The translations under genes were made by a program, and so were the position numbers. The notes under the pieces were generated by a model. It made no database searches, had not been told where the DNA came from, and worked only from the letters and a program-made list of their open reading frames with translations. DNA of 64,000 bases from Phytohabitans suffuscus (GTDB taxonomy: Bacteria; Actinomycetota; Actinomycetes; Mycobacteriales; Micromonosporaceae). The stretch lies in contig NZ_AP022871.1 of NCBI RefSeq assembly GCF_011764565.1, positions 1-64,000 of the forward strand, read 5' to 3'. Below, piece by piece: positions 7,552 through 64,000 of the stretch (positions are counted from its first letter, which is position 1; each line of letters opens with the position of its first letter).

Positions 7552-7558
7552 TTCGTGG

Positions 7559-16082: not shown

Positions 16083-16105
16083 GGCCCGGCATCATCCGCG
16101 ATCGC

Positions 16106-16175
16106 GCTAAAGCCTCGGCAAAGCCGGGCCCCGGCCCCTCGACGTTTGGTCGAGCCTTAGCGGGCCTTAAGCCTA
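16106..16175. promoter_or_regulatory. Cluster of GCTAAAGCC/GCCTTA direct repeats upstream of the extender-unit operon
   Basis: GCTAAAGCC (16106-16114) and CAAAGCC (16119-16125) place AAAGCC twice with an 11-bp period. GCCTTA recurs at 16154 and 16164, followed by GCCTA at 16171. Direct repeats at about one helical turn are the usual form of SARP operators, and a SARP gene is present at 43043. Related boxes lie at 40384, 43979 and 48621. Binding is inferred only. Confidence 0.5.
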
Positions 16176-16272
16176 TACGGCGAGATTGGCCACGCTCCGC
16201 GCCACGGTCATCGGCAGTGTCCGGACCAGGGTGGCCGCGCTATTCGGGATCGTCCTCAAGCGAGGAGGCGAC

Positions 16273-16539
16273 GTGCCGGACGACCAGACCCTACGCAAGC
16301 TCGTCACGTTCATCGACGAGACGCTCTGCCCCCAGGAGATGGAGGAGCCGATCCGGCCGGACACGCCCCTGTTGGAGCTCGGCATCCTCGACTCGCTGAA
16401 GACCGCGATCCTGCTCAACTTCATCCGCGACGCCCTCGGGGTCGTGGTGCCGCCCAAGGACCTCAGCGCCCGCAACTTCAAGAACCCCGCGGCCATCGCC
16501 GCGATGGTCGACCAGCTCAGCGCAGCGCCCAGCCGCTAG
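16273..16539 (+). CDS. Free-standing acyl/peptidyl carrier protein
   Basis: An 88-residue carrier protein. The phosphopantetheine serine is in LLELGILDSLKTAILLNF, and a helix-rich C-terminus (DALGVVVPPKDLSARNFKN) completes the four-helix fold. GTG 16273 is preferred because GAGGAGG lies 4-10 nt before it; an upstream ATG (16186) would add 29 residues with no homology. It is the first gene of an operon and lies 26 nt ahead of a flavin-dependent halogenase. Several halogenases of this class act on acyl groups tethered to carrier proteins, so this protein is probably the substrate carrier for that enzyme. No adenylation enzyme that would load it is seen in the window. Confidence 0.85.
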   Translation: MPDDQTLRKLVTFIDETLCPQEMEEPIRPDTPLLELGILDSLKTAILLNFIRDALGVVVPPKDLSARNFKNPAAIAAMVDQLSAAPSR

Positions 16540-16565
16540 ACCGCGACCTGGCTACGGAGGAATCG

Positions 16566-17918
16566 ATGGAAGCTGACTACGATGTCGCCGTCGTGGGCGG
16601 TGGCCCGGCGGGCGCGGTGACCGCCTCCTATCTCGCGCGGGCCGGGTTGTCGGTCGTGGTGCTGGAGTCGGAGATGTTCCCCCGGCCGCACGTGGGCGAG
16701 TCACTCATCCCGGCCACCACGCCGGTGCTGCTGGAGATCGGCGCGATGCCGGCGATCGAGGAGGCCGGCTTCCCGAAGAAGTTCGGCGCCGCCTGGACCT
16801 CGGCCGAGTCGCGGACCGTACCGCACAACGGCTTCACCGGGCTCTACTACGGCTTCTCGGCCGCCGAGATCAACTTCGTCGAGCGGGACCAGCCGGACGT
16901 CGACCGCGACCACACGTTCCATGTGGACCGTGGCCAGTTCGACCTCATCCTGCTCAAGCACGCGCAGGAGTGCGGCGCCACGGTCTTCACCGGTGCCCGG
17001 GTGCTCAAAGTGGACCTCGACGACCCGGCCGGCGCGCGGCTGACCGCCCGGTTCGGCCCGCGCGAGGTGGACCTCACCGCCGGCATGGTGGTGGACGCGT
17101 CGGGCCGGCAGACGCTGCTCGGGCGGCAGCTGCGGACGAAGGTGATGGACCCGGTGTTCGGGCAGTACGCCCTCCACACCTGGTTCGAGGGGCTGGACCG
17201 CGGGGCCGCGGCGCCGTACCCGACCAAGAAGGACGACTACATCTTCGTCCACTTCCTGCCCATCCAGGACACCTGGGTCTGGCAGATCCCGATCACGGAC
17301 ACGATCACCAGCATCGGCGTCGTCACGCAGAAGGACCGGTTCGCCGAGGCCAATGTGGACCGTGAGGCGTTCTTCTGGGACTTCGTGTCGAGCCGGCCGG
17401 AGCTGCACGACGCGCTCAGGAAGGCCAAGCGGATCCGGCCGTTCAAGCCCGAGGGCGACTACAGCTACCTGATGAAGGAGATCTGCGGCGACCGGTACGT
17501 CCTGGTCGGCGACGCGGCCCGGTTCGTGGATCCGATCTTCTCCAGCGGCGTGAGCATCGCGATGAACAGCGGCCGCATCGCCGCCAAGGCCATCATCGCC
17601 GCCCGCGAGCAGGGCAAGCCGTTCACCAAGGACGTGTTCGCCGAGTTCGAGCGGAAGATGCGCCGCGCGACGAAGTACTGGTACGAGTTCATCTCGGTGT
17701 ACTACCGGTTGAACATCCTGTTCACCGCGTTCGTCCAGGACCCGCGGTACCGGATCGGCGTGCTCAAGCTGCTCCAGGGCGACGTGTACGACGAGGACGA
17801 GCCGACCACCCTGAACGCGATGAAGGAGATGGTCAAGGCGGTCGAGGACGACCCGGAACACCTGTGGCACAGGTACCTGGGCACGCTGCGGGCCCCGATG
17901 GTCGCGCCGTCGAGCTGA
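16566..17918 (+). CDS. Flavin-dependent halogenase (carrier-protein-substrate type)
   Basis: A 450-residue FAD protein. The FAD motif GGGPAGA is at residues 11-17. GESLIPATTPVL follows at about 45, and a lysine pair in FPKKFGAAW sits where halogenases hold the catalytic lysine that handles hypohalous acid. The halogenase hallmark W-x-W-x-I-P is present as WVWQIP near residue 239. GDAARFVDPIFSSGVS is the second FAD-binding motif. The C-terminal segment (KYWYEFISVYYRLN ... DPEHLWHRYLG) fits the CmlS/CndH-like branch rather than tryptophan halogenases. GGAGGA precedes ATG 16566. The stop is one base before the CCR start. A non-halogenating oxidase role remains possible, since some relatives with this motif do not halogenate. 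A flavin reductase is not encoded nearby. Confidence 0.82.
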   Translation: MEADYDVAVVGGGPAGAVTASYLARAGLSVVVLESEMFPRPHVGESLIPATTPVLLEIGAMPAIEEAGFPKKFGAAWTSAESRTVPHNGFTGLYYGFSAAEINFVERDQPDVDRDHTFHVDRGQFDLILLKHAQECGATVFTGARVLKVDLDDPAGARLTARFGPREVDLTAGMVVDASGRQTLLGRQLRTKVMDPVFGQYALHTWFEGLDRGAAAPYPTKKDDYIFVHFLPIQDTWVWQIPITDTITSIGVVTQKDRFAEANVDREAFFWDFVSSRPELHDALRKAKRIRPFKPEGDYSYLMKEICGDRYVLVGDAARFVDPIFSSGVSIAMNSGRIAAKAIIAAREQGKPFTKDVFAEFERKMRRATKYWYEFISVYYRLNILFTAFVQDPRYRIGVLKLLQGDVYDEDEPTTLNAMKEMVKAVEDDPEHLWHRYLGTLRAPMVAPSS

Positions 17919-17919
17919 C

Positions 17920-19263
17920 ATGGACCCGATAGCGGAGGCGTTGCTCGGCGACGCGACACCCGACCAGCTGGCCCGGATCGACGTGCCCGGCGACTACCTG
18001 GCCGCGTACCTGCGGGCGGAGGACGTCGGGATGTTCGCCGGCGGCGCGGACAAGGACGTGCGGCGGTCGATGAAGGTCGGCCGGGTGCCGATGCCGCAGC
18101 TCGCGCCGGACGAGGCGCTCGTCGCGGTGATGGCCAGCTCCATCAACTACAACACCGTGTGGTCGGCGATGTTCGAGCCGCTGCCGACGTTCGCGTTCCT
18201 GCGGCGGTTCGCCGCCACCGGCGGCTTCGCCCAGCGGCACGACCTCCCGCACCACGTGGTGGGCTCGGACGCGGCCGGCGTCGTCGTGCGGGTGGGCGCC
18301 GGCGTGCGGCACTGGCGCGTCGGCGACCACGTCATGGTCAGTCCGGCCTATGTGGACGACCAGGAGCCGGGCACGCACGCCGACGGCATGATGGGTGACG
18401 AGCAGCGGGCGTGGGGGTTCGAGACGAACTTCGGCGGGCTGGCGCACTACGCGGTGGTCCGGGTCAGCCAGCTCGTCCCCAAGCCGCCGCACCTCACGTG
18501 GGAGGAAGCCGCCAGCATCACGCTCTGCGCCGGCACCGCGTACCGGATGCTGGTGAGCCCGCTCGGCGCGGACCTGAAGCAGGGCGACACCGTGCTGGTG
18601 TGGGGCGCGACCGGCGGGCTCGGCGCCTACGCCGTGCAGATGGTGCGGGCCGGCGGCGGCATCGCCGTCGGCGTGGTCGGCACCGAGGAGAAGGCCGCGG
18701 CGTTGCGGCGCCTCGGCTGCGACGTCGTCGTCAACCGCCACGACATCGGGCTCGCCGGCACCGCCGGGGACGCCGACCACGCGATCGAGATCGGCAAGCG
18801 GTTGGGGCGCATCATCCGGGCCGAGACCGGCGGCGACCCGCGGATCGTCTTCGACTACGTCGGACGGTCCACGTTCGGCGTCTCGGTGTTCGTGGCGGCC
18901 CGCGGCGGCATCGTCGTCACCTGCGGGTCGAGCTCCGGCTACCGGCACGAGTACGACAACCGGTACCTGTGGATGAACCTCAAGCGCGTCATCGGCAGCC
19001 ACGTCGCCAACCTCCGCGAGCAGTGGGAGTGCGCCCGCCTGTTCAGCCTCGGCCGGCTCGCGCCGACGCTGTCGCGGGTGTACCCGCTGAGCGAGGCCGC
19101 CGACGCCACCCGGCTGGTGCAGACCAACAGCCACCTCGGGAAGGTGGGTGTGCTGTGCATGGCGCCGGTGACCGGGCTCGGCGTCACCGACCCCGAGCTG
19201 CGCGAGCGGATCGGGGTGGCGCGCATCAACCCGCTGCGCGACCTTGTCGGAACCCACACCTAG
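17920..19263 (+). CDS. Crotonyl-CoA carboxylase/reductase (CCR)
   Basis: A 447-residue medium-chain reductase that reduces 2-enoyl-CoA with NADPH and fixes CO2 to give an alkylmalonyl-CoA. CCR marks are the Asn in SSINYNTVW (about residue 74), the Phe-Glu in WGFETNFGGLAHY, the nucleotide motif VWGATGGLGAYAVQ, and the His in LKRVIGSHVANL. These are the residues known to orient CO2 in characterised CCRs. The substrate-lining segment reads AASITLCAGTAYRML, where many CCRs have AAAPGLVNSTAYR, so the pocket may be altered. Translation is probably coupled to the halogenase (one-base gap). Together with the KASIII and dehydrogenase genes it should supply a branched extender unit to the PKS. Confidence 0.9.
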   Translation: MDPIAEALLGDATPDQLARIDVPGDYLAAYLRAEDVGMFAGGADKDVRRSMKVGRVPMPQLAPDEALVAVMASSINYNTVWSAMFEPLPTFAFLRRFAATGGFAQRHDLPHHVVGSDAAGVVVRVGAGVRHWRVGDHVMVSPAYVDDQEPGTHADGMMGDEQRAWGFETNFGGLAHYAVVRVSQLVPKPPHLTWEEAASITLCAGTAYRMLVSPLGADLKQGDTVLVWGATGGLGAYAVQMVRAGGGIAVGVVGTEEKAAALRRLGCDVVVNRHDIGLAGTAGDADHAIEIGKRLGRIIRAETGGDPRIVFDYVGRSTFGVSVFVAARGGIVVTCGSSSGYRHEYDNRYLWMNLKRVIGSHVANLREQWECARLFSLGRLAPTLSRVYPLSEAADATRLVQTNSHLGKVGVLCMAPVTGLGVTDPELRERIGVARINPLRDLVGTHT

Positions 19264-19327
19264 CCTCGTCGGAACCCACACCAAGCCTCGTCGGAACCCA
19301 CCTAGCAGAGTCGGAATCCCCACCACC
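19242..19327 (+). repeat. Four imperfect 20-22-bp tandem repeats across the CCR stop codon
   Basis: Units of the form CCTYGTCGGAACCCACACC plus a 3-bp tail (TAG or AAG) occur at 19242-19263, 19264-19285 and 19286-19305, with a degenerate fourth at 19306-19327. The first unit encodes the last CCR residues and its TAG is the CCR stop codon. The array fills the gap before the KASIII gene and may affect transcript stability or be slippage-derived. Confidence 0.85.
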
Positions 19328-19343
19328 GGAGAGGTGCAGCCAC

Positions 19344-20357
19344 GTGGCGACGCTCGCAACCGGAATCGTCTCGACCGGGTCCTACCTGCCCGAGCGGGAG
19401 GTGGGAAACGAGGAGGTGGCGGGCCTGGTCGGGATCGACCCGGAGTGGATCGACCGCAAGACGCAGATAGCCCGCCGCCGGTACGCCGCGCGCGACGAGG
19501 CCACATCGGACCTGGCCGTCCACGCGGCGACCCGGGCACTCGCGGGGGCCGGTCTCGGCGCCGACCGGATCGACTACCTCATCCTCTCGACGTCAACCGG
19601 CGACTCCCCCCAGCCGCCGACCTCCGCCCTGGTCCAGCACGCGCTGGGGGCGTACCGCGCGGCGTGCGTCGACATCAACGTCGTGTGCAGCGGCTTCGTC
19701 TACGGCCTGGCGCTCGCCAACGCCCTGGTCGCCCGGGATCCGGCGGCGCACGCCCTGGTCATCGCCGCGGACGTCTACTCGCGCATCCTGGACTTCTCCG
19801 ACCGGCGGACCGCCGTGCTGCTCGGCGACGGCGCGGGCGCGGCCGTCGTGGGCCGGGTCCGCGAGCCGTACGGCTTCGTCGGCTTCGAACTGTCCACGCA
19901 CGGCTACGCCCAGAACCTCATCCGGGTCGACGCGGGCGGCAGCCGGCGGCCGGCGACGCACGAGACGGTGGAGGCCGGCGAGCACTACTTCCGGATGGAC
20001 GGGCGCGGGGTCCGGGACTTCGTCATGGAGCACGTGCCGCCCGCGCTGAGGTCCCTTGTGGACCGCGCCGGTGTGGGCCTCGACGGCATCGACCACTTCG
20101 TGCCGCACCAGGCCAACGGCGTCCTCCTCACCGAGCTCGTCAAGCGCGCCGGGCTCGCCGGCGCGCAGACCCACCGCACGCTGGAGCGGTACGGCAACAT
20201 CGGCAGCGCCTCCGTGCCGGTCGCCCTCGACGACGCCGCCCAGTCCGGACGGCTCCGGGCGGGCGACACGATGCTGCTGGCCGGTTTCGGCGGCGGGATG
20301 TCGATCGGCGCCTGCCTGCTGCGGTGGTCCGCCTCTCCGCCGCAGCCGGCGTCGTGA
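19344..20357 (+). CDS. Beta-ketoacyl-ACP synthase III (FabH-like)
   Basis: A 337-residue KASIII. The catalytic cysteine is in DINVVCSGFVYGLAL (about residue 112). The histidine is in FVPHQANGVLL and the asparagine in RYGNIGSASVPVAL, giving the intact C-H-N triad needed for decarboxylative condensation. GTG 19344 is chosen because GGAGAGG lies 9 nt before it and the fold begins at once (GIVSTGSYLPEREV). In extender pathways such as those for branched alkylmalonyl-CoA, a KASIII condenses a short acyl-CoA with malonyl-ACP to give a 3-ketoacyl intermediate, which the following dehydrogenase and the CCR then process. The acyl primer is not predictable here. Its stop overlaps the next start (GTGA). 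Confidence 0.9.
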   Translation: MATLATGIVSTGSYLPEREVGNEEVAGLVGIDPEWIDRKTQIARRRYAARDEATSDLAVHAATRALAGAGLGADRIDYLILSTSTGDSPQPPTSALVQHALGAYRAACVDINVVCSGFVYGLALANALVARDPAAHALVIAADVYSRILDFSDRRTAVLLGDGAGAAVVGRVREPYGFVGFELSTHGYAQNLIRVDAGGSRRPATHETVEAGEHYFRMDGRGVRDFVMEHVPPALRSLVDRAGVGLDGIDHFVPHQANGVLLTELVKRAGLAGAQTHRTLERYGNIGSASVPVALDDAAQSGRLRAGDTMLLAGFGGGMSIGACLLRWSASPPQPAS

Positions 20358-21232
20358 GCGGCGTCCCCGCCGAGATCTCCCGGGTCGGCATCGTCGGCTG
20401 CGGCGTGATGGGCTCGGGCATCGCCGAGGCGTGCGCGCGGCGTGACCTCGACGTGGTCGTGGTGGGACCGGGGGCGGAGTCGGTGGAGCGCGGCCGGCGG
20501 CGCCTGGTCGACTCGCTCGACCGTGCGCTGCGCAAGTCACGCATCAGCGAGGCGGAGCGCGACGCGGTGCTGGGGCGGGCGCGGTTCACCGCCGACCTCC
20601 AGGAGCTCGCCGACCGCGAGCTGGTGCTGGAGGCGATACCCGAGGACGAGCCCGCCAAGCTGGCGATGTTCGGCGACATCGACAAGATCGTCGCGGCGCC
20701 GGAGGCGGTCCTCGGGTCGAACACGTCGTCCATACCCATCGTCCGGCTCGCCCGCGCCACGCAGCGGCCGGAACAGGTCATCGGCATCCACTTCTTCAGC
20801 CCGGCGGCGATCCAGCCGCTCGTCGAGGTGGTGCCGTCGCTGCTCACCTCGACGCGGGCCGGCGAGCGGGTCGAGTCGTTCCTGGTGGACCGCCTCGGCA
20901 AGCAGCCGATCCGGTCGCCGGACCGGGCCGGCTTCGTGGTTAACGCGCTGCTGATCCCCTACCTGCTCGCGGCGATCCGCATGGTGGAGTCCGGGTTCGC
21001 GCCGGCCGAGACCGTCGACCGCGGCATGGTACTGGGCTGCTCGCACCCGGTCGGCCCGCTCAAGCTCGTCGACCTGATCGGACTGGACACGATCGCGGCG
21101 GTTGCGCAGTCGCTGTACCAGGAGTTCAGGGAGCCGCAGTACGCACCGCCGCCCCTGCTGCGGCGCATGGTCGAGGGCGGGCTGTACGGCAAGAAGTCCG
21201 GGCAGGGCTTCTACACCTACCCGCTCGCCTGA
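20354..21232 (+). CDS. 3-hydroxyacyl-CoA (3-hydroxybutyryl-CoA) dehydrogenase
   Basis: A 292-residue NAD(P)-dependent dehydrogenase. The Rossmann motif VGIVGCGVMGSGIAEA is near residue 12. The catalytic histidine is in GIHFFSPAAIQPLVEVV with the partner glutamate, and the asparagine is in VVNALLIPYL. The C-terminal domain ends in GLYGKKSGQGFYTYP, as usual. GTG 20354 overlaps the KASIII stop by four bases, so translation is coupled. It should reduce the KASIII product to a 3-hydroxyacyl thioester. A dehydratase (crotonase) to give the CCR substrate is not encoded in this operon and would have to come from elsewhere. Confidence 0.88.
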   Translation: MSGVPAEISRVGIVGCGVMGSGIAEACARRDLDVVVVGPGAESVERGRRRLVDSLDRALRKSRISEAERDAVLGRARFTADLQELADRELVLEAIPEDEPAKLAMFGDIDKIVAAPEAVLGSNTSSIPIVRLARATQRPEQVIGIHFFSPAAIQPLVEVVPSLLTSTRAGERVESFLVDRLGKQPIRSPDRAGFVVNALLIPYLLAAIRMVESGFAPAETVDRGMVLGCSHPVGPLKLVDLIGLDTIAAVAQSLYQEFREPQYAPPPLLRRMVEGGLYGKKSGQGFYTYPLA

Positions 21233-21552: not shown

Positions 21553-40266
<18,714 letters not shown>

Positions 40267-48640: not shown

Positions 48641-48775
48641 ACCCGACAACCATGGTTACCCGGTGGCCTCCGACCCATGTGGAGTCGTTGTTCGAGCGGC
48701 GACACCCAACCGCCATTCCCGTCGTCTCGAACACGAGGTCGCCCCTTCTCAAGGCGAGGGGAGCAGGTCGCGCCG

Positions 48776-51700
48776 ATGACGACCAACAACGAAGAGAAGC
48801 TGCTGGAGTACCTCAAGCGGGTCACGACCGACCTCCGGCGCACCCAGCGCCGGCTGAAGGACGTCGAGGCCGCGAGCCAGGAGCCCATCGCCATCGTGGG
48901 TATGGCCTGCCGCTTCCCCGGCGGCGCGAACTCACCGGACGACTGGTGGGAGCTGGTGCGGGACGGGCGGGACGCGGTGGGACCGCTGCCCACCGACCGC
49001 GGGTGGGACCTGGCCGCGATGTACCACCCCGACCCCGACCACCCCGGTACCAGCTACGCCCGCGAGGGCGGCTTCCTCTACGACGCGACCGAGTTCGACG
49101 CGGCCTTCTTCGGCATCAGTCCGCGGGAGGCGCAGGGCATGGCGCCGCAGCAGCGGCTCGCGCTGGAGATCTCCTGGGAGAGCATCGAGCACGCCGGCAT
49201 CGACGCGCGGTCGCTGCGCGGCAGCGCGACCGGCACGTTCATCGGCTGCGACCACCTGGACTACGTGACCGACGTGTCGCTGGTGCCGCAGGGGTCGGCG
49301 GGCTACTTCACCATCGGCAACTCGGCCAGCGTGGTCTCCGGCCGCGTGGCGTACACGCTGGGGTTTGAAGGTCCGGCGGTGACCGTGGACACCGCCTGCT
49401 CGTCGTCGCTGGTGGCGATCCACCTGGCCGCCCAGGCCCTGCGCTCGGGCGAGTGCACGCTCGCGCTCGCCGGCGGGGTCGCGGTGATGTCCTCGTCGGC
49501 GCCGTTCATCGGGTTCAGCGAGCTGGGCGGCCTGGCGGCCGACGGGCGTTCCAAGGCGTTCGCGGCGGGCAGCGACGGGATGACCCTCTCCGAGGGCGCG
49601 GGCGTGGTACTGCTCGAACGGCTCTCCGACGCGGAGCGCAACGGCCACCGCGTGTACGCCGTGGTGCGTGGAAGCGCGCTCAACCAGGACGGCGCGTCGA
49701 ACGGCTTGACCGCGCCGAACGGCCCCGCCCAGCAGCGCGTGATCCGCCAGGCCCTGGCCAACGCCGGCCTCACCGCGGCGGAGGTGGACGCGGTCGAGGC
49801 GCACGGGACGGGTACGACGTTGGGTGACCCCATCGAGGCGCAGGCGCTGCTGGCCACCTACGGGCAGGACCGTCCGGACGATCGGCCGCTGTGGCTGGGA
49901 TCGGCGAAGTCGAACATCGGCCACACCCAGATGGCGGCCGGTGTCGCGGGCGTCATCAAGATGGTCCAGGCGATGCGGCACGGTGTGCTGCCCCGCACCC
50001 TGCACATCGACGAGCCATCCTCCCATGTGGACTGGGACAGCGGCGCGGTGCGGCTGCTGACCTCCGCGATGGAGTGGCCGGCGACCGGTCGACCGCGCCG
50101 GGCGGGTGTGTCGTCGTTCGGCATGTCGGGCACCAACGCCCACGTCGTCCTGGAGCAGGCCCCCCAGCTTTGGCCCGAGCCCGAGCCCGCCGACGAGCCC
50201 GTTGTCGAGCCGGACGGCGTGTGGTTGCTGTCGGGCAAGGGCATGCCGGCACTGCGCGCGCAGGCGGCCCGGCTGGCTGGGTGGGTGGAGGACCGGCCGG
50301 ACTCGTCGGTGGCGCGGGTGGGCCGGTCGCTGTGGTCCACCCGCACCCAGCTGCCCGACCGGGCGGTGGTGGTCGGCCAGGATCGGCGGCAGCTGGTGGA
50401 CGGGTTGGCGGCGCTGGCGGAGGGGCGGCCGCACCCGCAGGTGGTCACCGGCGCCGGCGACGGGCGGCCCGCTGGCGCGATGGTGTGGGCGTTCACGGGT
50501 CAGGGTTCGCAGCATGTGGGCATGGGAGCTGGCCTGTACCAACGGTTCCCGGTGTTCGCCGAGGCGCTCGACCGTGTCTGTGCTCTGCTGGACCCGAGGC
50601 TGCGCGCGGTGATGTTCGACGGCCCGGCCGAAGTGTTGGACCACACCTCTTTCACGCAGCCGGCGATCTTCGCCCACCAGGTGGCGCTGGCTGCTTTGTT
50701 GGAGAGCTTCGGTGTGAGACCGGACGTGGTGGTAGGCCACTCGATCGGCGAGATATCCGCCGCGCACATCGCCGGCGTCCTCAACCTGCCCGACGCCTGC
50801 GCTCTGGTCACCGCGCGTGCCACGCTGATGGGCGCACTGCCGGCGGGCGGCGCGATGGCCACCGTCCACACCAGCTCAGAGGCACTGGCACCCCTGCTGA
50901 CCGACGAGATCAGCATCGCCGGACTGAACACCCCCACCGACACCGTGATCTCCGGCCCGACCGAGCACGTCGACGCACTCATCACCCGGCTGCGCGCACA
51001 GGGCATCAAGTGCACCCGGCTGCGGACCAGCCACGCCTTCCACTCAGCCGCGATGGACCCCATCCTCGACGACTTCGCCAACGCCATCGCCAACCTCGAC
51101 TACCACGCTCCCGCTATCCCGCTGGTCAGCGGCCCGGACGGTCAAGCCGCCATCACCACCCCGGACTACTGGGTCCAGCAGCTGCGGGAGCCGGTCCGGT
51201 TCCACCCGGCCATCAGTCATATCGACGGTCAGCATCCCGGATCCTTCTACCTGGAAATAGGACCCCACCCGACACTCAGCACCGCCATCCAGCACACCCT
51301 GCCGCAACCACTCACCGCTCACACCCAGTACCGCGAACAACCCGCCGCCACCACCTTCCACACCGCACTCGCACACGCACACGTCGCAGGCATCCCCGTC
51401 GACTGGACACCGGCGTTCCCACCCGCGGCACCGATCGAGCTGCCGACCTACGCCTTCCAGCGCCAGCGTTTCTGGTTGGAGGCGCCGGCCCGGACGGGGT
51501 CGGGGTTGCCGGCGACGACGGTTGCCGAGGCGGAGTTCTGGGACGCGGTGGACCGGGAGGACGTCACTACCCTTTCCACGACTTTGGGCACCAGCCCGGA
51601 CCAGCTCGAACAGGTCCTCCCCGCGCTGGCGAGCTGGCGTCGTGACCAGGCCGACGCCGCGGTGGTCGAGGGTTGGCGTTACGAGGTCGTGTGGGAGCCC

Positions 51701-54700
51701 GTTCCCGGTGCGGCTGCCGGTGCGGCTCCCGGTGCGGTGACCCTTGCCGGGGACTGGCTGCTCGTCCTCCCGCCAGAGCACACCGACCACCCGGCTGTCG
51801 CCCTGGTCCAGGATGTCCTGGCCGATCACGGCGCGACCGTGCACATCTTCACTCCGGCCCCGGGTGTGCTGGGCGATCTGCCCGACACCGATTTCGCCGG
51901 CGTGGTCAGCCTGCTCGCCTTGGACGAACAGCCGACTCCCGACTATCCGGCCACCCCGCGGGGCCTGGCCGGGAACGTGGCTCTGCTGCAGGCCATCACC
52001 AGCCGCGACACCCGACTGTGGTGTGTCACCCAGGGTGCGATCGCCGTCAACACCACCGAACCACTACCCCACCCGACCCAGGCAATGACCTGGGGTATGG
52101 GACGGGTCGCCGCCCTCGAACACCCCCGTCACTGGGCCGGCCTCATCGACCTCCCGACCGCCACCGACCCCCACACCGGCCGACTCCTCGCGGCCCTGCT
52201 CGCCACCGACCCCAGCCAGCCACCACCCGAAGACCAGGTCGCCATCCGCGCCTCCGGCCTGCATGCCCGCCGCCTCCGCCACGCCCCCAGCCCCAGCCCC
52301 AGCCCCAGCCCCAGCCCCAGCCCCAGCCCCAGCCCCAGCCCCAGCCCCAGCCCCAGCCCCAGCCCCAGCGATGGTGACCAGCCGTGGAAGCCGACCGGGA
52401 CGACCCTCATCACCGGCGGCACCGGAGCACTCGCCACCCACATCGCCACCTGGCTCACGGAACTGGGCGCCCCGCACCTCCTGCTCGCGTCGCGGAGCGG
52501 GTCGAACGCGCCGACCGCCGAGCACCTCGCCGCCCTCGCCAACGACACGACGCAGATCACCATCACCAGCTGCGACGTCACCGACCGGCAACAGCTCACC
52601 CGTCTGCTGCAAGCGATCCCGCCGGACCAACCGCTCACCACGGTCATCCACACCGCGGGGGCGGCCGACGACTTCCTGATCGAGGAGCTTCACCCCCACA
52701 ACCTCGAACCCACACTCCGGCCCAAGGCTCACGGTGCCGCACTGCTCCACCAGCTGACGCTGGATCGGCCCGATGTGACTTTGGTGTTGTTTTCGTCGGC
52801 CGCCGCCACCTGGGGCAGCGGGCACCAAGCCGCCTACGCCGCAGCCAACACCTACCTCGACGCCCTCGCCCAACACCGCACCACCCACAACCTCCCCACC
52901 ACCAGCATCGCCTGGGGCCCCTGGAACAACATCGGCATGGCCGCCAACCCCCAAACACTCCAATACCTCACCCAACGAGGCCTCCACCCACTCAACCCCC
53001 ACCACGCCACCAAAGCCCTCCACCACACCCTCACCCACCCCACCCCCACCACCACCATCACCAACACCAACTGGCACACCTTCACCACCACCTTCACCAC
53101 CCACCGACCCAGCCCACTCCTCACCCACCTCACCCCCCAACCCACCACCCCCCACCAACACACCAACCAAACCAACCCACTCACCACACACCTCAACACC
53201 CTCAACCCACAACAACAACACCAACACCTCCTCACCCTCATCCAAACCCACACCGCCACCACCCTCGGACACCCCACCACCCACCACATCCCACCCCACC
53301 AACCCTTCCAACAACACGGCCTCGACAGCCTCACCGCCATCCAACTCCGCAACACCCTCACCACCCACACCACACTCCCCCTCCCCACCACCCTCATCTA
53401 CGACCACCCCACACCACACCAACTCGCCACCCACCTCCAACAACAACTCACCAACACCACAACCACCCCAACCCCAACCACCACCACCCACACCACCAAC
53501 CAACCCATCGCCATCATCGGCATCGCCTGCCACTACCCCGGCAACACCCACAACCCCCACGACCTCTGGACCCTCACCCACACCGAACAAGACGCCATCA
53601 CCCCACCCCCCACCAACCGAGGCTGGAACACCACCCCACAAACCCACACCACCCACGGCGGCTACCTCCACCACGCCACCCAATTCGACCCCACCCCCTT
53701 CAACATCAACCCCGCGAAGCACTCGCCATGGACCCCCAACAACGACTCCTCCTCGAAACCGCCTGGGAAACCATCGAAAACGCCAACATCCCCACCACAC
53801 CCTCCAACACACCAACACCGGCATCTATGTGGGTGGGACCTTCCAGGGGTACGGCGCGGGCGGTACCGCTTCGGCGCCCGAGGTCGAGGGGTACCTCCTC
53901 ATCGGCAGCACAGCCAGTGTCATGTCGGGCCGGGTGGCGTACACGCTGGGGCTTGAGGGTCCGGCGGTGACCGTGGACACGGCGTGCTCGTCGTCGCTGG
54001 TGGCGATCCACCTGGCCGCCCAGGCACTGCGCTCGGGCGAATGCTCGCTCGCGTTCGCCGGCGGGGTCGCGGTGATGGCGACGCCCGACGTGTTCGCCGA
54101 GTTCTCGCGGCAGCAGGGACTGGCCAGCGACGGGCGCTGCAAGTCGTTCTCGGAGGCGGCCGACGGCACCGGCTGGAGTGAGGGCGTTGGTCTGCTTCTG
54201 CTGGAGCGGCTCTCCGACGCCCAGAAGAACGGCCACCACATCCACGCCATCATCCGCGGAACGGCCACCAACCAGGACGGCGCGTCGAACGGCCTGACCG
54301 CCCCCAACGGCCCGTCGCAGCAGCGGGTCATCCGCCAGGCCCTCGCCAACGCCGGCCTCACCCCGTCCGAAGTGGACGCCGTCGAAGCACACGGCACCGG
54401 AACGAAACTGGGCGACCCGATCGAGGCCCAAGCGCTGCTGGCCACCTACGGCCAGGACCGCCCCACCGACCAACCACTATGGCTCGGCTCCATCAAATCC
54501 AACATCGGCCACACCCAAGCCGCCGCAGGCGTCGCCGGCATCATCAAAATGGTCCAAGCCATCCACCACGGCATCCTGCCCCGCACCCTCCACATCGACC
54601 AACCCACCACCCACGTCGACTGGAACAGCGGCGCCGTCCGCCTCTTGACCTCCACCATCAACTGGCCCGAAACCGGCCGACCCCGCAGAGCCGGCATCTC

Positions 54701-57700
54701 ATCCTTCGGCATCTCCGGCACCAACGCCCACATCATCATCGAACAAGCCCCCGAACCCGACCCCGACACCCCACCCCAGATCGACAACAACGACGACGGC
54801 GTGTGGCTACTCTCCGCCAAGGGCATGCCGGCGTTGCGCGCACAGGCCGCCCGCCTCACCGACTGGCTCCAAGACCGGCCGGAGCTGACAGCAACCCAGG
54901 TCGGCTGGTCACTATGGAACACCCGCACCCAGCTACCCGACCGAGCAGTAATCACCGGCGAACAAAAACTCGACGCCCTGACCGCCCTAGCCAAAGGACA
55001 ACCACACCCGCAGGTAATCACCGCAGCCGGCGACGGACGCCCCGCTAGCGCGATGGTATGGGCCTTCACCGGCCAAGGCGCCCAGCACGTAGGCATGGGA
55101 ACCGGCCTCTACCAACGCTTCCCCATCTTCGCCGAAACACTCGACCACATCTGCGCCCTACTGAACCCGCGACTACGTGACGTGATGTTCAACGGCCCAG
55201 CCGAGGTGCTGGACCACACCTCTTTCACCCAGCCGGCGATCTTCGCCCACCAGGTGGCGCTGGCCGCTTTGCTGGAGAGCTTCGGCGTGAAACCGGACAT
55301 AGTGGTCGGCCACTCCATCGGCGAAATCACTGCCGCGCACATCGCCGGCATCCTCAACCTGCCCGACGCCTGCGCCCTGGTCACCGCGCGTGCCACCCTG
55401 ATGGGCGCACTGCCGGCAGGCGGCGCGATGGCCACCGTTCACACCAGCGCCGAGCACCTGGCACCGTTGCTGACCGACGGGGTCAGCATCGCCGCACTGA
55501 ACACCCCCACCGACACCGTGGTCTCCGGCCCTACCGAGCACGTCGACGCACTCATCACCCGGCTACGCGACCAAGGCATCAAATGCAGCCGGCTACGGAC
55601 CAGCCACGCCTTCCACTCGGCCGCGATGGACCCCATCCTCGACGACTTCGCCCACGCCATCGCCGACCTCGACTACCACGCTCCGACCATCCCGCTGATC
55701 AGCGGCCCGGACGGTCAAGCCGCCATCACCACCCCGGACTACTGGGTCCAGCAGCTGCGGGAGCCGGTCCGGTTCCACCCAGCCATCAGCCACATAGACC
55801 GCCAGCACCCCGGAGCGTTCTACCTCGAAATAGGACCCCACCCGACACTCACCACCGCCATCCAACACACCCTCCCGCAACCACACACCACCCACACCCA
55901 ACACCGCAGCGAGCCAGCCACCACCACCCTCCACACCACACTCGCACACGCACACGTCACCGGCATCCCCATCGACTGGACACCGGCGTTCCCAGCCGCA
56001 GCACCGATCGAACTACCCACCTACGCCTTCCAACGCCAGCGCTTCTGGTTGGAGGCGCCGGCGCCGATCGAGTTGCCGGCCGCCACGGCGGCGGAGATTC
56101 AGTTCTGGGACGCGGTGGACCGGGAGGACGTCGACGCGCTGTCCACCACTCTCGGCGCCGAGCCCGACCCGTTGGGGCGGGTCCTACCGGCCTTGACCGC
56201 CTGGCGTCGTGACCAGGCCGACGCCGCGGTGGTCGAGGGTTGGCGTTACGAGGTCGTGTGGGAGCCCGTTCCCGGTGCGGCTGCCGGTGTGGCTCCCGGT
56301 GCGGTGACCCTTGCCGGGGACTGGCTGCTCGTCCTCGCGCCAGAGCACGCCGACCACCCGGCTGTCGCCCTGGTCCAGGATGCCCTGGCGGAGCACGGCG
56401 CGACGGTGGACACCCTCACGGCTTTCCCCGGCGCCCCGATCGATCTGCCCGACACCGATTTCGCCGGTGTGGTCAGCCTGCTCGCCTTGGACGAGGGGCC
56501 AACCCCGGACTATCCGGCCACCCCGCGGGGCCTGGCCGGGAACGTGGCTCTACTGCAGGCCATCACCAGCCGCGACACCCGACTATGGTGTGTCACCCAG
56601 GGTGCGATCGCCGTCAACACCACCGAACCACTACCCCACCCCACCCAGGCCATGACCTGGGGTATGGGCCGCGTCGCCGCCCTCGAACACCCCCAGCACT
56701 GGGCCGGCCTCATCGACCTCCCGACCACCACCGACCCCCACACCAGCCAACTCCTCGCGGCCCTGCTCGCCACCGACCCCAGCCAGCCACCGCCCGAAGA
56801 CCAGGTCGCCATCCGCCCCTCCGGCCTACATGCCCGCCGCCTCCGCCACGCCCCCAGCCCCAGCCCCAGCCCCAGCCCCAGCCCCAGCCCCAGCCCCAGC
56901 CCCAGCCCCAGCCCCAGCGATGGTGACCAGCCGTGGAAGCCGACCGGGACGACCCTCATCACCGGCGGCACCGGAGCACTCGCCACCCACATCGCCACCT
57001 GGCTCACCGAACAAGGCGCCCCACACATCCTGCTCGCCTCACGCAGCGGAACCAACGCGCCGACCGCCCAACAACTCACCGCCCTCGCCAACGACACCAC
57101 ACAGATCACCATCACCAGCTGCGACATCACCGACCCACAACAGATCGAACAACTCCTCCACTCGATCCCCGCGCAGCACCCCCTGACCACGGTCATCCAC
57201 ACGGCCGGCGTGGCAGAGGACATCCCCTTCGCGGAGGTCACGGCCGAACATGCCAACGATGTCCTTGCTCCCAAGTCCCACGCCGCCTACCACCTTCACC
57301 GGCTCACGCAGGACCAGCCCGGCGTCACTTTGGTGTTGTTTTCGTCGGCCGCCGCCACCTGGGGCAGCGGGCACCAAGCCGCCTACGCCGCAGCCAACAC
57401 CTACCTCGACGCCCTCGCCCAACACCGCACCACCCACAACCTCCCCACCACCAGCATCGCCTGGGGCCCCTGGAACAACATCGGCATGGCCGCCAACCCC
57501 CAAACACTCCAATACCTCACCCAACGAGGCCTCCACCCACTCAACCCCCACCACGCCACCAAAGCCCTCCACCACACCCTCACCCACCCCACCCCCACCA
57601 CCACCATCACCAACACCAACTGGCACACCTTCACCACCACCTTCACCACCCACCGACCCAGCCCACTCCTCACCCACCTCACCCCCAACCCACCACCCCC

Positions 57701-60700
57701 ACCAACACACCAACCAAACCAACCCACTCACCACACACCTCAACACCCTCAACCCACAACAACAACACCAACACCTCCTCACCCTCATCCAAACCCACAC
57801 CGCCACCACCCTCGGACACCCCACCACCCACCACATCCCACCCCACCAACCCTTCCAACAACACGGCCTCGACAGCCTCACCGCCATCCAACTCCGCAAC
57901 ACCCTCACCACCCACACCACACTCCCCCTCCCCACCACCCTCATCTACGACCACCCCACACCACACCAACTCGCCACCCACCTCCAACAACAACTCACCA
58001 ACACCACAACCACCCCAACCCCAACCACCACCACCCACACCACCAACCAACCCATCGCCATCATCGGCATCGCCTGCCACTACCCCGGCAACACCCACAA
58101 CCCCCACGACCTCTGGACCCTCACCCACACCGAACAAGACGCCATCACCCCACCCCCCACCAACCGAGGCTGGAACACCACCCCACAAACCCACACCACC
58201 CACGGCGGCTACCTCCACCACGCCACCCAATTCGACCCCACCCCTTCAACATCAACCCCCGCGAAGCACTCGCCATGGACCCCCAACAACGACTCCTCCT
58301 CGAAACCGCCTGGGAAACCATCGAAAACGCCAACATCCCCCACCACACCCTCCAACACACCAACACCGGCATCTACACCGGACTGTCCTCACAGGACTAT
58401 GGAACGCGTCTCGCGGACGCGGGCGAAGAGGTGGAAGGTTATGTCGCCACTGGCAACCTGGGGAGCGTGGTGTCTGGGCGGGTGGCCTACACCCTCGGCC
58501 TCGAAGGCCCAGCGGTCACCATCGACACCGCCTGCTCCTCATCACTGGTCGCCATCCACCTGGCCGCACAGGCACTCCGCACCGGCGAATGCGACCTCGC
58601 CCTCGCCGGCGGCATCACCATCATGGCCACCCCGGGCGCCTTCATCGAGTTCTCCCGCCAGCAGGCACTGGCATCCGACGGGCGCTGCAAGTCCTTCGCG
58701 GACGCCGCCGATGGCACGGGCTGGGGTGAGGGTGTCGGCCTGCTCCTACTGGAGCGGCTCTCCGACGCCCAGAAGAACGGCCACCACATCCACGCCATCA
58801 TCCGCGGAACAGCCACCAACCAGGACGGCGCCAGCAACGGCCTAACCGCCCCCAACGGCCCATCACAGCAGCGGGTCATCCGCCAAGCCCTCGCCAACGC
58901 CGGCCTCACCCCAGCCGACGTCGACGCCGTCGAAGCACACGGCACCGGCACCACCCTCGGCGACCCGATCGAAGCCCAAGCCCTACTCGCCACCTACGGC
59001 CAAGACCGACCCGCCGACCAACCACTATGGCTCGGCTCCATCAAATCCAACATCGGCCACACCCAAGCCGCCGCAGGCGTAGCCGGCATCATCAAAATGG
59101 TCCAAGCCATGCACCACAGGGTCCTACCCCGCACCCTGCACGTCGACCAGCCCACCACCCACGTCGACTGGAACAGCGGCGCCGTCCGCCTCCTCACCAC
59201 CACCATCAACTGGCCCGAAACCGGCCGACCCCGCAGAGCCGGCATCTCATCCTTCGGCATCTCCGGCACCAACGCCCACATCATCATCGAACAAGCCCCC
59301 GAACCCACACCCACCAACACACCCAAACCGGAACCGAACACCGAAACAGACAGCGTCTGGCTACTCTCCGCCAAAGGCATACCCGCACTACACGCACAAG
59401 CAGCCCGCCTCACCCAATGGCTCCAAGACCGGCCAGAGCTAACAGCAACCCAGGTCGGCTGGTCACTATGGAACACCCGCACCCAGCTACCCGACCGGGC
59501 GGTGGTGGTCGGCCAGGATCGGCGGCAACTGGTGGACGGGTTGGCGGCGCTGGCGGAGGGGCAACCGCACCCGCAGGTGATCAGCGGGGCCGGCGACGGG
59601 CGGCCCGCTGGCGCGATGGTGTGGGCGTTCACGGGTCAGGGTTCGCAGCATGTGGGCATGGGAGCCGGCCTGTACCAACGGTTCCCGGTGTTCGCCGAGG
59701 CACTCGACCGCGTCTGCGCTCTGCTGGACCCGAGGCTGCGCGCGGTGATGTTCGACGGCCCAGCCGAAATGTTGGACCACACCTCTTTCACACAGCCGGC
59801 GATCTTCGCCCACCAGGTGGCGCTGGCTGCTTTGTTGGAGAGCTTCGGTGTGAGACCGGACATAGTGGTAGGCCACTCGATCGGCGAGATAACGGCCGCG
59901 CACATCGCCGGCGTCCTCAACCTCGCGGACGCCTGCGCCCTGGTCACCGCGCGTGCCACGCTGATGGGCGCACTACCCGCGGGCGGCGCGATGGCCACCG
60001 TCCACACCAGCTCAGAGGCACTGGCACCCCTGCTGCCCGACGAGATCAGCATCGCCGCACTGAACACCCCCACCGACACCGTGGTCTCCGGCCCGACCGA
60101 GCACGTCGACGCACTCATCACCCGGCTACGCGACCAAGGCATCAAATGCAGCCGGCTACGGACCAGCCACGCCTTCCACTCCCCCGCAATGGACCCCATC
60201 CTCGACGACTTCACCCACGCCATCACCGACCTCGACTACCAAACTCCCGCCATCCCGCTGATCAGCGGCCCGCACGGTCAAGCCGCCGCCATCACCACTC
60301 CTGGCTACTGGGTCCAGCAACTACGGGAACCGGTCCAGTTCCACCCGGCCATCAGCCACATAGACCGCCAGCACTCCGGAGCGTTCTACCTGGAAATAGG
60401 ACCCCACCCGACGCTCACCACCGCGATCCAGCACACCCTCCCGCAACCACACACCACCCACACCCAACACCGCAGCGAGCCGGCCGCCACCACCTTCCAC
60501 ACCGCACTCGCACACGCACACGTCACCGGCATCCCCATCAACTGGACACCAGCACTCCCGGCCGTGGCGCCGATCGAACTACCCACCTACGCCTTCCAAC
60601 GGCAACACTTCTGGGTCGACCCGCCGGCGCGGAAGGGGGCCGCGGGCACGACTGTCGCCGAAACTCAGTTCTGGGACGCGGTGGACCGGGAGGACGTCGC

Positions 60701-62746
60701 CGCGCTGTCCGCGACCCTGGGCACTGCCCCGGACCAGCTCGGACAGGTCCTACCCGCGCTGGCCAGCTGGCGTCGTGACCACGCCGATGCCGCCGCGGTC
60801 GATGCCTGGCGCTACAGCGTCGTGTGGGAGCTCCGGTCCACCCCCACAAGTTCCGGTGCGGTGACGCTTGCCGGGGACTGGCTGCTGGTCTTCCCGTCGC
60901 AGGACGCCGAGCACCCGGCTGTCGCCCTGGTCAGGGACGCCCTGGCGGAGCACGGCGCGACGGTGTACACCCTCGGCCCGGACCCGGGTGGTCAGATCCA
61001 TCTGCCCGAACAGGACTTCGCCGGCGTGGTCAGCCTGCTTGCCCTGGACGAGCGGGCCACCCCCGACCACCCGGCCACCCCGCAGGGCCTGGTTGGAAAC
61101 GTGGCGCTGCTTCAAGCCCTCACCACCGGCCGGCCGCAGACCCGGCTCTGGTGTCTGACCCAGGGCGCGGTCGCCACGAGCCGGACCGAGCCGCTGCCCT
61201 ACCCGACCCAGGCCCTCACCTGGGGTATGGGGCGGGTCGCCGCCCTCGAACATCCCCGCCAATGGGCCGGGCTGGTCGACCTACCGGTCACCGTCGACTC
61301 CCACACCGGCAGTCTCCTCGCCAGCGTGCTGGCCGCCGACCCCAGCCAGCCACCGCCCGAGGACCAGGTCGCCATCCGCCCCTCCGGCCTCCACGCCCGC
61401 CGCCTCCAGCACGCCCCCAGCCCCAGCAACGGCGGCAAGCCGTGGAAACCGACGGGCACCACTCTTATCACCGGCGGCACCGGAGCCCTCGCCACCCACA
61501 TCGCCACCTGGCTCACCGAACAAGGCGCCCCACACATCCTGCTCGCATCCCGCAGCGGAACCAACGCACCAACCGCCCAACACCTCACCGCCCTCGCCAA
61601 CGACACCACACAGATCACCATCACCAGCTGCGACATCACCGACCCACAACAGACCGAGCAACTCCTCCACTCGATCCCCGCGCAGCACCCCCTGACCACC
61701 GTCATCCACACCGCGGGGGTAGCGGAGAACGCTCCTCTCGACGAGTTCACCACCGAGCACGCGAACGGCATCCTCGGTCCCAAGTCCCACGCCGCCTACC
61801 ACCTCCACCAGCTCACCAAGGACCGGCCCGACCTCACGCTCGTCCTCTTCTCCTCCGGCTCCGCCACGTGGGGCAGCAGCCGCCAGGCCACCTATGCCGC
61901 GGCCAACGCCTACCTCGACGCGCTCGCGGAACACCGCACCGCCAACAGCCTGCCCACCACCAGCATCGCCTGGGCGCCCTGGAACGACATCGGCATGGCG
62001 GCCGACCCGGCGATCCTCAGCTACTACACGAAGCGAGGGCTGCGCCCGCTCGACCCCGACCTGGCCGTCAAAGCCCTCCACCACGCCCTGACCCACCCCG
62101 CCGCCACCATCACCGTCGCTGACATCGACTGGCGGACCTTCCCCGCGCCGTTCACCACCCACCGCCCCAGCCCACTGCTCACCCACCTCACCCCCCAACC
62201 CACCTCCCACGGCGACACCACCGACGGAACCAACCCACTCACCACACACCTCAACACCCTCAACCCACAACAACAACACCAACACCTCCTCACCCTCATC
62301 CAAACCCACACCGCCACCACCCTCGGACACCCCACCACCCACCACATCCCACCCCACCAACCCTTCCAACAACACGGCCTCGACAGCCTCACCGCCATCC
62401 AACTCCGCAACACCCTCACCACCCACACCACACTCCCCCTCCCACCACCCTCATCTACGACCACCCCACACCACACCAACTCGCCACCCACCTCCAACAA
62501 CAACTGACCGGAGGAGACGGGTTCGCCGAGGAGGGCATCCTGTCGCAGCTGGAGAGGTGGGACCCGAGTGACGACCTCGTGGACGAGGCGGCGCGCAGGC
62601 GGGTCGCCGTACGGCTGCGGCTGCTGCTGGAGAGATGGAGCGGGACGGAGCAGGAGGAAGAACGCACCGCCGCGCACCGGGAGCTGGAAACGGCGTCGGC
62701 AGACGCCCTTTTCGACCTGATCTCCACCGAGTTCGGAAAGTCCTGA
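48776..62746 (+). CDS. Modular type I PKS (PKS-B): three KS-AT-KR-ACP modules; six frame breaks
   Basis: About 4,658 residues after six single C bases are restored at 53710, 53790, 57682, 57696, 58241 and 62441. ATG 48776 follows a GGGGAG-type site and starts the N-terminal docking coiled coil ([19 protein letters not shown]). Module 4: KS (VDTACSS) 48882-50160, AT (GHSIGE, HAFH, malonyl), KR, ACP ([11 protein letters not shown]). Modules 5 and 6 have the same layout, with KS cores at about 53500 and 58045. All ATs carry HAFH. All KRs keep the second Ser of FSS and the Tyr. KR6 is A-type (AEN plus W). KR4 and KR5 combine an Asp at the B-type position with the A-type Trp. No DH or ER is present, so three hydroxyls in 1,3 spacing are predicted. 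A C-terminal docking helix ends [13 protein letters not shown]. Confidence 0.92.
52286..52369 (+). repeat. CCCAGC hexanucleotide array, 14 copies, in PKS-B module 4
   Basis: Fourteen uninterrupted CCCAGC units encode (Pro-Ser)14 just ahead of the catalytic half of KR4 (before [17 protein letters not shown]). It lengthens an inter-domain linker and is in frame. Confidence 0.95.
52777..53827 (+). repeat. About 1.05-kb near-identical repeat, copy 1 (copy 2 at 57326-58374)
   Basis: Covers the KR active-site part, the ACP and the N-terminal third of the next KS. It matches 57326-58374 almost base for base, and its ACP part recurs at about 62230-62500. The coding strand is very G-poor (ACC, CAC, CCC, AAC, CAA codons), giving Thr/His/Gln/Asn-rich protein. 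Differences between copies are mainly the length of C runs. Confidence 0.9.
54500..55361 (+). repeat. KS/AT segment nearly identical to PKS-A module 3 (inverted copy at 25780-26640)
   Basis: Partner of the minus-strand copy in PKS-A. It lies in module 5 from [14 protein letters not shown] in the KS to the AT segment [11 protein letters not shown]. Confidence 0.85.
56853..56918 (+). repeat. CCCAGC hexanucleotide array, 11 copies, in PKS-B module 5
   Basis: Eleven in-frame CCCAGC units encode (Pro-Ser)11 at the same KR-linker position as the array at 52286-52369. Confidence 0.95.
57326..58374 (+). repeat. About 1.05-kb near-identical repeat, copy 2
   Basis: Second copy of the KR-ACP-KS segment described at 52777-53827. 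Its C runs at 57682, 57696 and 58241 are each one base shorter than in copy 1. Conversely, copy 1 is shorter at two other runs. Confidence 0.9.
61416..61427 (+). repeat. CCCAGC unit, 2 copies, in PKS-B module 6
   Basis: Two CCCAGC units (Pro-Ser-Pro-Ser) at the same linker position as the longer arrays in modules 4 and 5, probably close to the unexpanded state. Confidence 0.85.
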
Positions 62747-62794
62747 GCTCGATGACGTCCGTGTCTGTCCGCTGAGGCGAGGAGCTTGGGCTAG

Positions 62795-64000
62795 ATGCCG
62801 AACGAAGAGAAGCTACTGGAGCACCTCCGCTGGGTGACGGCGGAGCTCCGCGACACGCGGCGGCGGCTGCACGAGGTCGAGTCGGCCATACCCGAGCCGA
62901 TCGCCGTCACCGGCATGGCCTGCCGCTACCCCGGCGGTGCCCGCTCGGCCGAAGACCTGTGGACGTTGGTGGCCGGCGACGGCGACGCCCTCTCGACGTT
63001 TCCGACCGACCGGGGCTGGGACGTCGAGCGGCTGTACGACCCGGATCCCGACCAGCCCGGAAAGTGCTATGTGGACAGTGGATTCTTCGTCGACGCGACC
63101 CGGTTCGACGCCGCGTTCTTCGGCATCTCGCCGCGCGAAGCGTTGGCCATGGACCCGCAGCAGCGGCTGCTCCTCGAGACGGCCTGGGAGGCGTTCGAGC
63201 GCGGTGGTCTCACCCGCGAGGCGCTGAGCGGGAGCAACACCGGCGTGTTCGTCGGGGTGAGCTCGCACGACCACCTGTCGCTGATGGGCCACGTCCCGGC
63301 CGAGCTTGAGGGGTACGTAGGTATGGGGAACGTGGGGAGTGTGGTGTCCGGGCGGGTGGCCTACACTCTCGGCCTCGAAGGCCCAGCCGTCACCATCGAC
63401 ACCGCCTGCTCCTCATCCCTCGTCGCCATCCACCTGGCCGCACAGGCACTCCGCACCGGCGAATGCGACCTCGCCCTCGCCGGCGGCATCACCATCATGG
63501 CCACCCCAGGCGCCTTCATCGAGTTCTCCCGGCAGCGCGCGCTATCCCTCGACGGGCGCTGCAAGTCCTTCGCCGAAGCAGCTGACGGCACAGGCTGGGG
63601 TGAAGGTGCCGGCCTGCTCGTGCTGGAGCGGCTCTCCGACGCCCAGAGGAACGGCCACCACATCCACGCCGTCATCCGCGGAACAGCCACCAACCAGGAC
63701 GGCGCCAGCAACGGCCTCAGCGCACCCAACGGCCCCTCGCAGCAACGCGTCATCCGCCAAGCCTTGACGAATGCCGGCCTCACCCCGGCCGACGTCGACG
63801 CGGTGGAGGCACATGGCACCGGCACCACGCTCGGTGACCCGATCGAGGCCCAGGCGCTGCTGGCCACCTACGGCCAGGACCGCCCCACCGACCAACCACT
63901 GTGGCTGGGCTCCATCAAGTCGAACATCGGCCACACCCAAGCCGCCGCAGGCGTAGCCGGCATCATCAAAATGGTCCAAGCCATCCAACACGGCATCCTG
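62795..64000 (+). CDS. Modular type I PKS (PKS-C), N-terminal part, cut by window end
   Basis: The frame stays open to the window end (402 codons visible). The N-terminal docking helix reads [31 protein letters not shown] follows from [16 protein letters not shown], with the active-site Cys in [10 protein letters not shown], the first His in [13 protein letters not shown] and the second in [11 protein letters not shown], so it is a condensing KS. AGGAG lies 10 nt before ATG 62795, and the PKS-B stop is 48 nt upstream. Downstream domains lie outside the window. The segment from about 63340 is nearly the same DNA as the KS of PKS-B module 6. Confidence 0.92.

Follow-up and report, generated by a model that had tools for sequence, protein, structure and literature searches.

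A carrier-halogenase pair and an alkylmalonyl cassette in one operon: probably two supply units of a putative polyether cluster in Phytohabitans suffuscus

Do the genes of a single operon that bring a halogenase together with enzymes for polyketide extender units serve one pathway or two? The question is raised by five adjacent plus-strand genes at 16273-21232 of the window, the 64,000-nucleotide stretch analysed here, which comprises bases 1-64000 of the single-contig 10.15 Mb genome of Phytohabitans suffuscus (NZ_AP022871.1). The genes encode a discrete acyl carrier protein (ACP), an FADH2-dependent halogenase (FDH1), a 2-enoyl-CoA carboxylase/reductase (CCR), a condensing enzyme of the ketoacyl synthase III type (KASIII) and a 3-hydroxyacyl-CoA dehydrogenase (HBD). 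We consider it likely that the operon holds two units that independently supply one probable polyether cluster: the ACP with a halogenase of the ChlB4 type, likely chlorinating carrier-bound 6-methylsalicylate, and CCR-KASIII-HBD, likely making an alkylmalonyl-CoA extender. The features of the run are as follows.

16273..16539, plus strand: discrete ACP, probable ChlB2-like partner of FDH1; GTG start, PF00550 at 31 bits, attachment motif GILDSLK
16566..17918, plus strand: FDH1, FADH2-dependent halogenase of the ChlB4/PltA kind by bit scores and tree; motifs GGGPAG, FPKKFGAAWTSAES and WVWQIP
17920..19263, plus strand: CCR, closest to CinF; TIGR01751 at 530 bits (cutoff 379)
19242..19325, plus strand: 22-bp tandem repeat running from the CCR 3' end into the CCR-KASIII gap; 2.7 copies, 94% matches
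19344..20357, plus strand: KASIII, FabH-type, condensing, residues Cys-His-Asn; PRK09352 at 317 bits (cutoff 249)
20354..21232, plus strand: HBD, 3-hydroxyacyl-CoA (3-hydroxybutyryl-CoA) dehydrogenase; PRK07819 at 436 bits (cutoff 319), 6hrd at 344 bits

A preliminary description of this DNA had named the same five families in one tight run, and the family scores and motifs agree with it. The genes do lie where it placed them, although its start at 16106 has to be moved to the GTG of the ACP gene at 16273, upstream of which there is a GAGGAGG stretch. Its picture of a compact, coupled operon fits three of the junctions (26 bp between ACP and FDH1, 1 bp between FDH1 and CCR, and a 4-bp overlap of KASIII and HBD) but not the CCR-KASIII gap of 80 bp, which holds part of the tandem repeat, and coupling along the run is therefore not uniform. 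A scan of 16000-21600 for sigma-70-type promoters gave zero matches.

The kind of substrate that FDH1 acts on was approached through its relatives. In chlorothricin biosynthesis, ChlB1 is the 6-methylsalicylate synthase, ChlB2 the carrier, ChlB3 the acyltransferase and ChlB4 the halogenase. ChlB4 is the closest solved relative of FDH1 (728 bits, 71% identity), followed by Mpy16 (618 bits) and PltA (593 bits), while the aliphatic halogenases CndH and CmlS are distant (157 and 154 bits); the NCBIfam model of CmlS gave 188 bits against a cutoff of 900, and no close kinship to CmlS or CndH was found. The flavin motif, the lysine and WxWxIP (as WVWQIP) are intact. By its sequence FDH1 is thus a carrier-dependent halogenase, as the preliminary description had held, of the aromatic-acyl-carrier kind and not near CmlS or CndH, which argues against that description's proposal of an extender acyl chain halogenated on the carrier.

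Many FDH1 relatives adjoin genes for adenylation and for acyl-CoA dehydrogenases, and halogenation of a pyrrole was for this reason considered first among the alternatives; it was rejected on the position of FDH1 in a halogenase tree, the kind of comparison that the preliminary description had proposed. This tree comprises 42 rows (FDH1, the 5' part of a second halogenase of this genome, FDH2, 25 of 26 related halogenase loci, ChlB4, Mpy16, PltA, CndH and 11 database relatives drawn from 120 listed, three of which repeat loci), with one locus, L050, left out for an internal stop; its support values are rough according to the tool's own warning. Rows were labelled as pyrrole from the neighbouring adenylation and dehydrogenase genes, the matches being weak and mostly at 31-36%. 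PltA, Mpy16, 13 of the 14 pyrrole-labelled rows and three others form a pyrrole group of 18 rows (91/99). FDH1, FDH2, ChlB4 and all four rows with a 6-methylsalicylate synthase in the fetched locus fall outside it, and FDH1 is sister (97/92) to a halogenase of Phytohabitans houttuyneae (genome G103, same genus) that sits with a carrier, a 6-methylsalicylate synthase and ChlB3-like genes. The motif VPHNGFTGL is present in FDH1, FDH2, ChlB4 and three loci (L042, L044 and L046), and the 14 pyrrole-group rows displayed all lack it.

The carrier points in the same direction. As at FDH1, the halogenase gene has a carrier gene next to it in 18 of the 26 related loci. The motif ELGILDSLKTAILLN of the window ACP is nearly the same in the carriers of L042 (60% identity) and L044 (54%), both beside 6-methylsalicylate synthases; among the aligned carriers of 11 relatives, all six from pyrrole-labelled loci have WG.LNS at the corresponding position. 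The window ACP is the best of four matches in the genome, the others being at 2.14 Mb, at 0.575 Mb and at an FkbJ-like gene, and no second discrete carrier of its kind was found in the 140 kb examined, only the FkbJ-like one. It is probably a ChlB2-like partner of FDH1, a likeness drawn through the carriers of the 6-methylsalicylate loci.

The other three genes resemble a known toolkit for alkylmalonyl extenders. In the akaeolide cluster, CCR, KASIII and HBD are the consecutive ORFs 532-534, in the order seen here, and one module is predicted to use propylmalonyl-CoA (PMC4306953); the preliminary description's assignment of the three genes is upheld by this set. The window CCR gave 633 bits with 4a0s (CinF, an octenoyl-CoA reductase/carboxylase), and crotonyl-CoA enzymes gave 482 or less. 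The three genes likely make an alkylmalonyl-CoA unit here. Two other roles were tried and rejected. KASIII as a ChlB3-type loader is ruled out by its Cys-His-Asn, as against the Cys-His-Asp of both ChlB3-like proteins of this chromosome, the residues given for ChlB3 (PMC9573744). HBD as the FkbK of a methoxymalonyl set is ruled out by a separate FkbK-like protein at 84.3 kb, called FkbK-like by its sequence and by its 35% identity to HBD.

Are the two halves found together elsewhere? We fetched 26 halogenase loci, most of 20 kb; two of them (L016 and L017) came from a contig scan of genomes, and two others from that scan were dropped as 34-residue matches. Of 300 genomes of the family, 81 contained relatives of KASIII at 1e-75, with 99 matches in all. 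From these, 20 KASIII loci of 15-17 kb were fetched: the 18 top-ranking ones apart from that of the window itself, together with a single locus each from this genome and P. houttuyneae. CCR-KASIII-HBD occurs in the same order in seven KASIII loci (L064-L068, L071 and L078), each time beside modular polyketide synthase (PKS) genes, and these sets share 50-72% identity with the window CCR, KASIII and HBD. Two further loci (L082 and L083) read CCR-HBD-KASIII, and 11 have KASIII without CCR and HBD. Both the halogenase and the window carrier are missing from all 20 KASIII loci, a repeat search with the carrier alone agreeing, so that the ACP-halogenase pair leading the run sets it apart from these sets and from akaeolide; conversely, HBD and full-length CCR were absent from all 26 halogenase loci, where weak KASIII matches (27-31%) were seen in L042 and L044. 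The exact five-gene order, for which the preliminary description had suggested a search, occurred in 0 of the 46 loci examined, no search of the whole collection for the order having been made. In the loci examined, halogenase-carrier and CCR-KASIII-HBD occur separately; their joining in one operon is unusual, and the chemistry is known in kind.

A 6-methylsalicylate synthase relative is apparently on the same contig for at least 19 of the 120 listed FDH relatives (own included; 18 of 119 others), a lower bound since both lists hold the best 120 matches and contigs of equal size were taken as the same. A phylum-wide search gave a match at 1e-150 in 4 of 396 genomes, own included, the other three at 55-58%. 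The second set of this genome, CCR-HBD-KASIII beside PKS genes at 1.87 Mb (with L082/L083), is shared with P. houttuyneae.

What would the two units serve? The surrounding PKS genes and a distant iterative PKS are listed below (C1 is the contig).

21553..37281, minus strand: three PKS extension modules, with frame changes near 28.0, 29.6 and 31.3 kb
34735..35694, minus strand: acyltransferase (AT) domain with motif GVDFTAH in the first module after the loading module, candidate alkylmalonyl user
37354..40218, minus strand: loading module KSQ-AT-ACP, Gln replacing the active-site Cys of the ketosynthase (KS)
48677..64000, plus strand: modular PKS running past the window to about 80 kb
C1 115555-120825, minus strand: ChlB1-like iterative PKS with KS, AT, dehydratase, ketoreductase and ACP domains, 56% identical to ChlB1 over the 1481 aa searched

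The modular PKS comprises one loading and 12 extension modules in total, the last of the plus block having a truncated AT. The 12 full-length modular AT motifs are four HAFH, six YASH, one FASH (loading) and one GVDFTAH, the last not found among the AT motifs treated in the excerpted text of PMC13351777. Its AT is perhaps the user of the alkylmalonyl unit, to judge from this motif; when it was compared with ATs of other cassette loci, AT_30182 (YASH) resembled those about equally. Four malonyl-type ATs (window 25171-26082, 50483-51394, 55056-55967 and 59619-60533) resemble one another at about 90%, a similarity that points to gene conversion or a recent duplication.

At 74.6-77 kb there are MonBI/MonBII-like (MonB-like, 217 bits) and MonCI-like (546 bits) proteins, and this pair of epoxide hydrolase and epoxidase genes probably marks a polyether pathway. 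A methoxymalonyl-ACP set follows at 84.3-88.3 kb (FkbK-like protein, carrier, acyl-CoA dehydrogenase, FkbH at 335 bits, O-methyltransferase). Beyond it, the minus strand at 115.6-130 kb encodes the 6-methylsalicylate-type synthase, FDH2, a ChlB3-like enzyme, a thioesterase, an acyl-CoA dehydrogenase, a B12 radical-SAM (S-adenosylmethionine) protein, an adenylation-peptidyl carrier protein (A-PCP) and a second ChlB3-like enzyme; the two ChlB3-like enzymes both have Cys-His-Asp, the first matching ChlB3 at 547 bits and the second scoring 340 bits. The synthase, ChlB3-like and FDH2 region lies 94-109 kb beyond the five-gene run on the same chromosome, and we infer from adjacency that all these stretches are one cluster. 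Measured against chlorothricin, the halogenase, the synthase, the acyltransferase and a discrete carrier beside the halogenase all have counterparts here, whereas the carrier and one halogenase stand about 98 kb from the synthase, within an extender operon, and a second halogenase and the polyether genes are added.

FDH2 directly adjoins the synthase, and its frame is broken in the assembly at C1 121.17 kb; with many such breaks in the assembly, it may or may not be intact. FDH1 and FDH2 stand about 103 kb apart, and pairs of related halogenases about 15 kb apart occur in G169 C23 (L046, L047) and in P. houttuyneae (G103 C2; L042, L043).

Several other features of the region were recorded. Frames change at many points in the PKS domains and FDH2 (window 28.0, 29.6, 31.3, 53.8, 58.2 and 62.4 kb; C1 70.4, 89.1, 98.1 and 121.17 kb), which looks like assembly error or decay. 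Over the plus-strand PKS at window 52001-64000, GC skew is strongly negative (to -0.35) and AT skew positive (to 0.32). Beside the cluster, window 2111-13703 encodes hydrolases of plant polysaccharides (GH62, GH30, AbfB domain, GH43). Inside or beside it, at C1 108344-110364 (L011), a gene of the IF-2B/methylthioribose-phosphate-isomerase type stands together with one for a class II aldolase.

By analogy with chlorothricin (PMC9573744, PMC8407142) and with cationomycin and alpha-770 (PMC6023020), from which all the ring steps are taken, the iterative PKS at 115.6-120.8 kb would make the 6-methylsalicylate ring, a ChlB3-like enzyme would shift it onto the window carrier, and FDH1, with or without FDH2, would chlorinate it on the carrier or after transfer. 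Ester linkage of the ring to the polyether would fall to the second ChlB3-like enzyme; in cationomycin and alpha-770, 6-methylsalicylate is ester-linked at C-3 (PMC6023020). In the extender unit, KASIII would join an acyl-CoA with malonyl-ACP, HBD would reduce the product, a dehydratase from elsewhere would form the enoyl thioester, CCR would carboxylate it and the GVDFTAH acyltransferase would load the resulting alkylmalonyl unit. Joint building of a halogenated extender, as first described, is disfavoured by the likeness of the ACP to carriers beside 6-methylsalicylate synthases, by the ChlB-type set in the cluster and by the separation of the halves in the loci examined; the fallback offered with it, in which a separate acyl group is the substrate of the halogenase, is preferable.

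The following points weigh against two units with a 6-methylsalicylate substrate. With 1 bp between them, FDH1 and CCR look as if they were used together, or at any rate expressed together. FDH1 is about 98 kb from the 6-methylsalicylate synthase, and the frame-broken FDH2 is directly beside it. Halogenase loci L050 and L055 contain partial CCR matches (29-31%), and L048 a KASIII relative at 47%. The pyrrole-labelled L017 lies apart from the pyrrole group in the tree, VPHNGFTGL is missing from two of the four 6-methylsalicylate loci (L016 and L048), and a comparison of substrate-specific columns between both halogenase groups yielded just two columns, of which one was the start codon, for which reason it was given no weight. 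As to precedent, ChlB4 is described as chlorinating after transfer to a glycoside (PMC9573744) or on the tethered ring (PMC8407142), and the 6-methylsalicylate of such polyethers is ascribed to a type III PKS (PMC6023020), whereas an iterative type I enzyme is present here.

Could FDH1 and its carrier serve a different aromatic unit, for example one from the A-PCP, B12 radical-SAM and acyl-CoA dehydrogenase genes at 124-129 kb, leaving 6-methylsalicylate to FDH2? It is FDH2, not FDH1, that adjoins the synthase, and the presence of two halogenases and two ChlB3-like enzymes would allow for a pair of acyl groups. However, the nearest FDH1 relative adjoins a 6-methylsalicylate synthase and ChlB3-like genes, no discrete carrier gene of the window-ACP kind is near FDH2, and the 124 kb dehydrogenase reached 213 bits where the prolyl-PCP dehydrogenase cutoff is 650. 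We regard this division of labor as unlikely.

A more doubtful possibility is that the five genes form one line after all, in which a chlorinated salicylate on the carrier would be extended by KASIII, reduced by HBD, dehydrated and converted by CCR into a chloro-hydroxybenzyl-type malonyl thioester, to be loaded by the GVDFTAH AT. The single run of five genes and the one AT with a non-standard motif are consistent with such a route, and if it were true, the product would carry a halogenated aromatic side branch within the polyether backbone. Chlorizidine, reportedly the subject of Mantovani and Moore in 2013, would be the precedent, being likewise a pathway in which a CCR leads to a halogenated extender. 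Its dichloropyrrolyl-propylmalonyl-ACP is counted among CCR products (PMC5187497); the chemistry there is that of pyrrole, unlike FDH1 with its place outside the pyrrole group. Against the route stand the 50-72% identity of CCR, KASIII and HBD to seven sets without such a halogenase within the 15-17 kb fetched, the alkyl enzyme CinF as the nearest relative of CCR, and the lack of full-length CCR in all 26 FDH loci. We think it improbable.

That FDH1 no longer halogenates, being a monooxygenase or silent, could be suspected from database names of some relatives (merely oxidoreductase or hydroxylase), and is very improbable given the intact WVWQIP, flavin motif and lysine and the 71% identity to ChlB4. 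Least probable of all is the route first proposed, in which an aliphatic acyl or beta-ketoacyl chain would be halogenated while carrier-bound and then turned by CCR into a haloalkylmalonyl unit: only the operon layout speaks for it, and against it are the distance of CmlS and CndH from FDH1 (154 and 157 versus 728 bits), the prevalence of non-heme iron enzymes among the examples of carrier-bound aliphatic halogenation consulted in PMC8407142, with CndH an exception, and the reasoning that an alpha-carbon chlorine would sit on the very carbon carboxylated by CCR.

Comparisons with other halogenated products place the cluster further. The chloroethylmalonyl-CoA route of salinosporamide shares a CCR with it. 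Salinosporamide SalG is, we assume, kin of CinF. The preliminary description had set that route apart. No SAM-dependent chlorinase was found in the cluster, and the sole match in the genome to the SAM hydrolase/chlorinase family (PF01887) is far away at 5.44 Mb. Nonthmicin is a halogenated polyether whose halogenase is 56% identical to HalB and presumed to act on the tetronate (PMC7256010). Nearer in kind are cationomycin and alpha-770, already mentioned, CP-54,883, a polyether with a side chain ending in an aromatic ring with two chlorines (PMC9144361), and 6-chloronoboritomycin, a chlorinated aromatic polyether (PMC3613094): all four carry a 6-methylsalicylate-type or chlorinated aromatic group, whereas the present cluster is known from its genes alone. 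Since CP-54,883, which Actinomadura routienii produces, already has a dichloro aromatic side chain, the chemistry is not new. No gene-cluster paper for these four compounds was found in the literature searched, most subscription papers lying outside it.

The window ACP and FDH1 are a clear carrier-halogenase pair. Chlorinated aromatic polyethers are known from their chemistry, and the locus leads to a cluster of genes for a probable member of this class. It also corrects a tempting reading of gene order, in that an operon can join enzymes that likely share no substrate.

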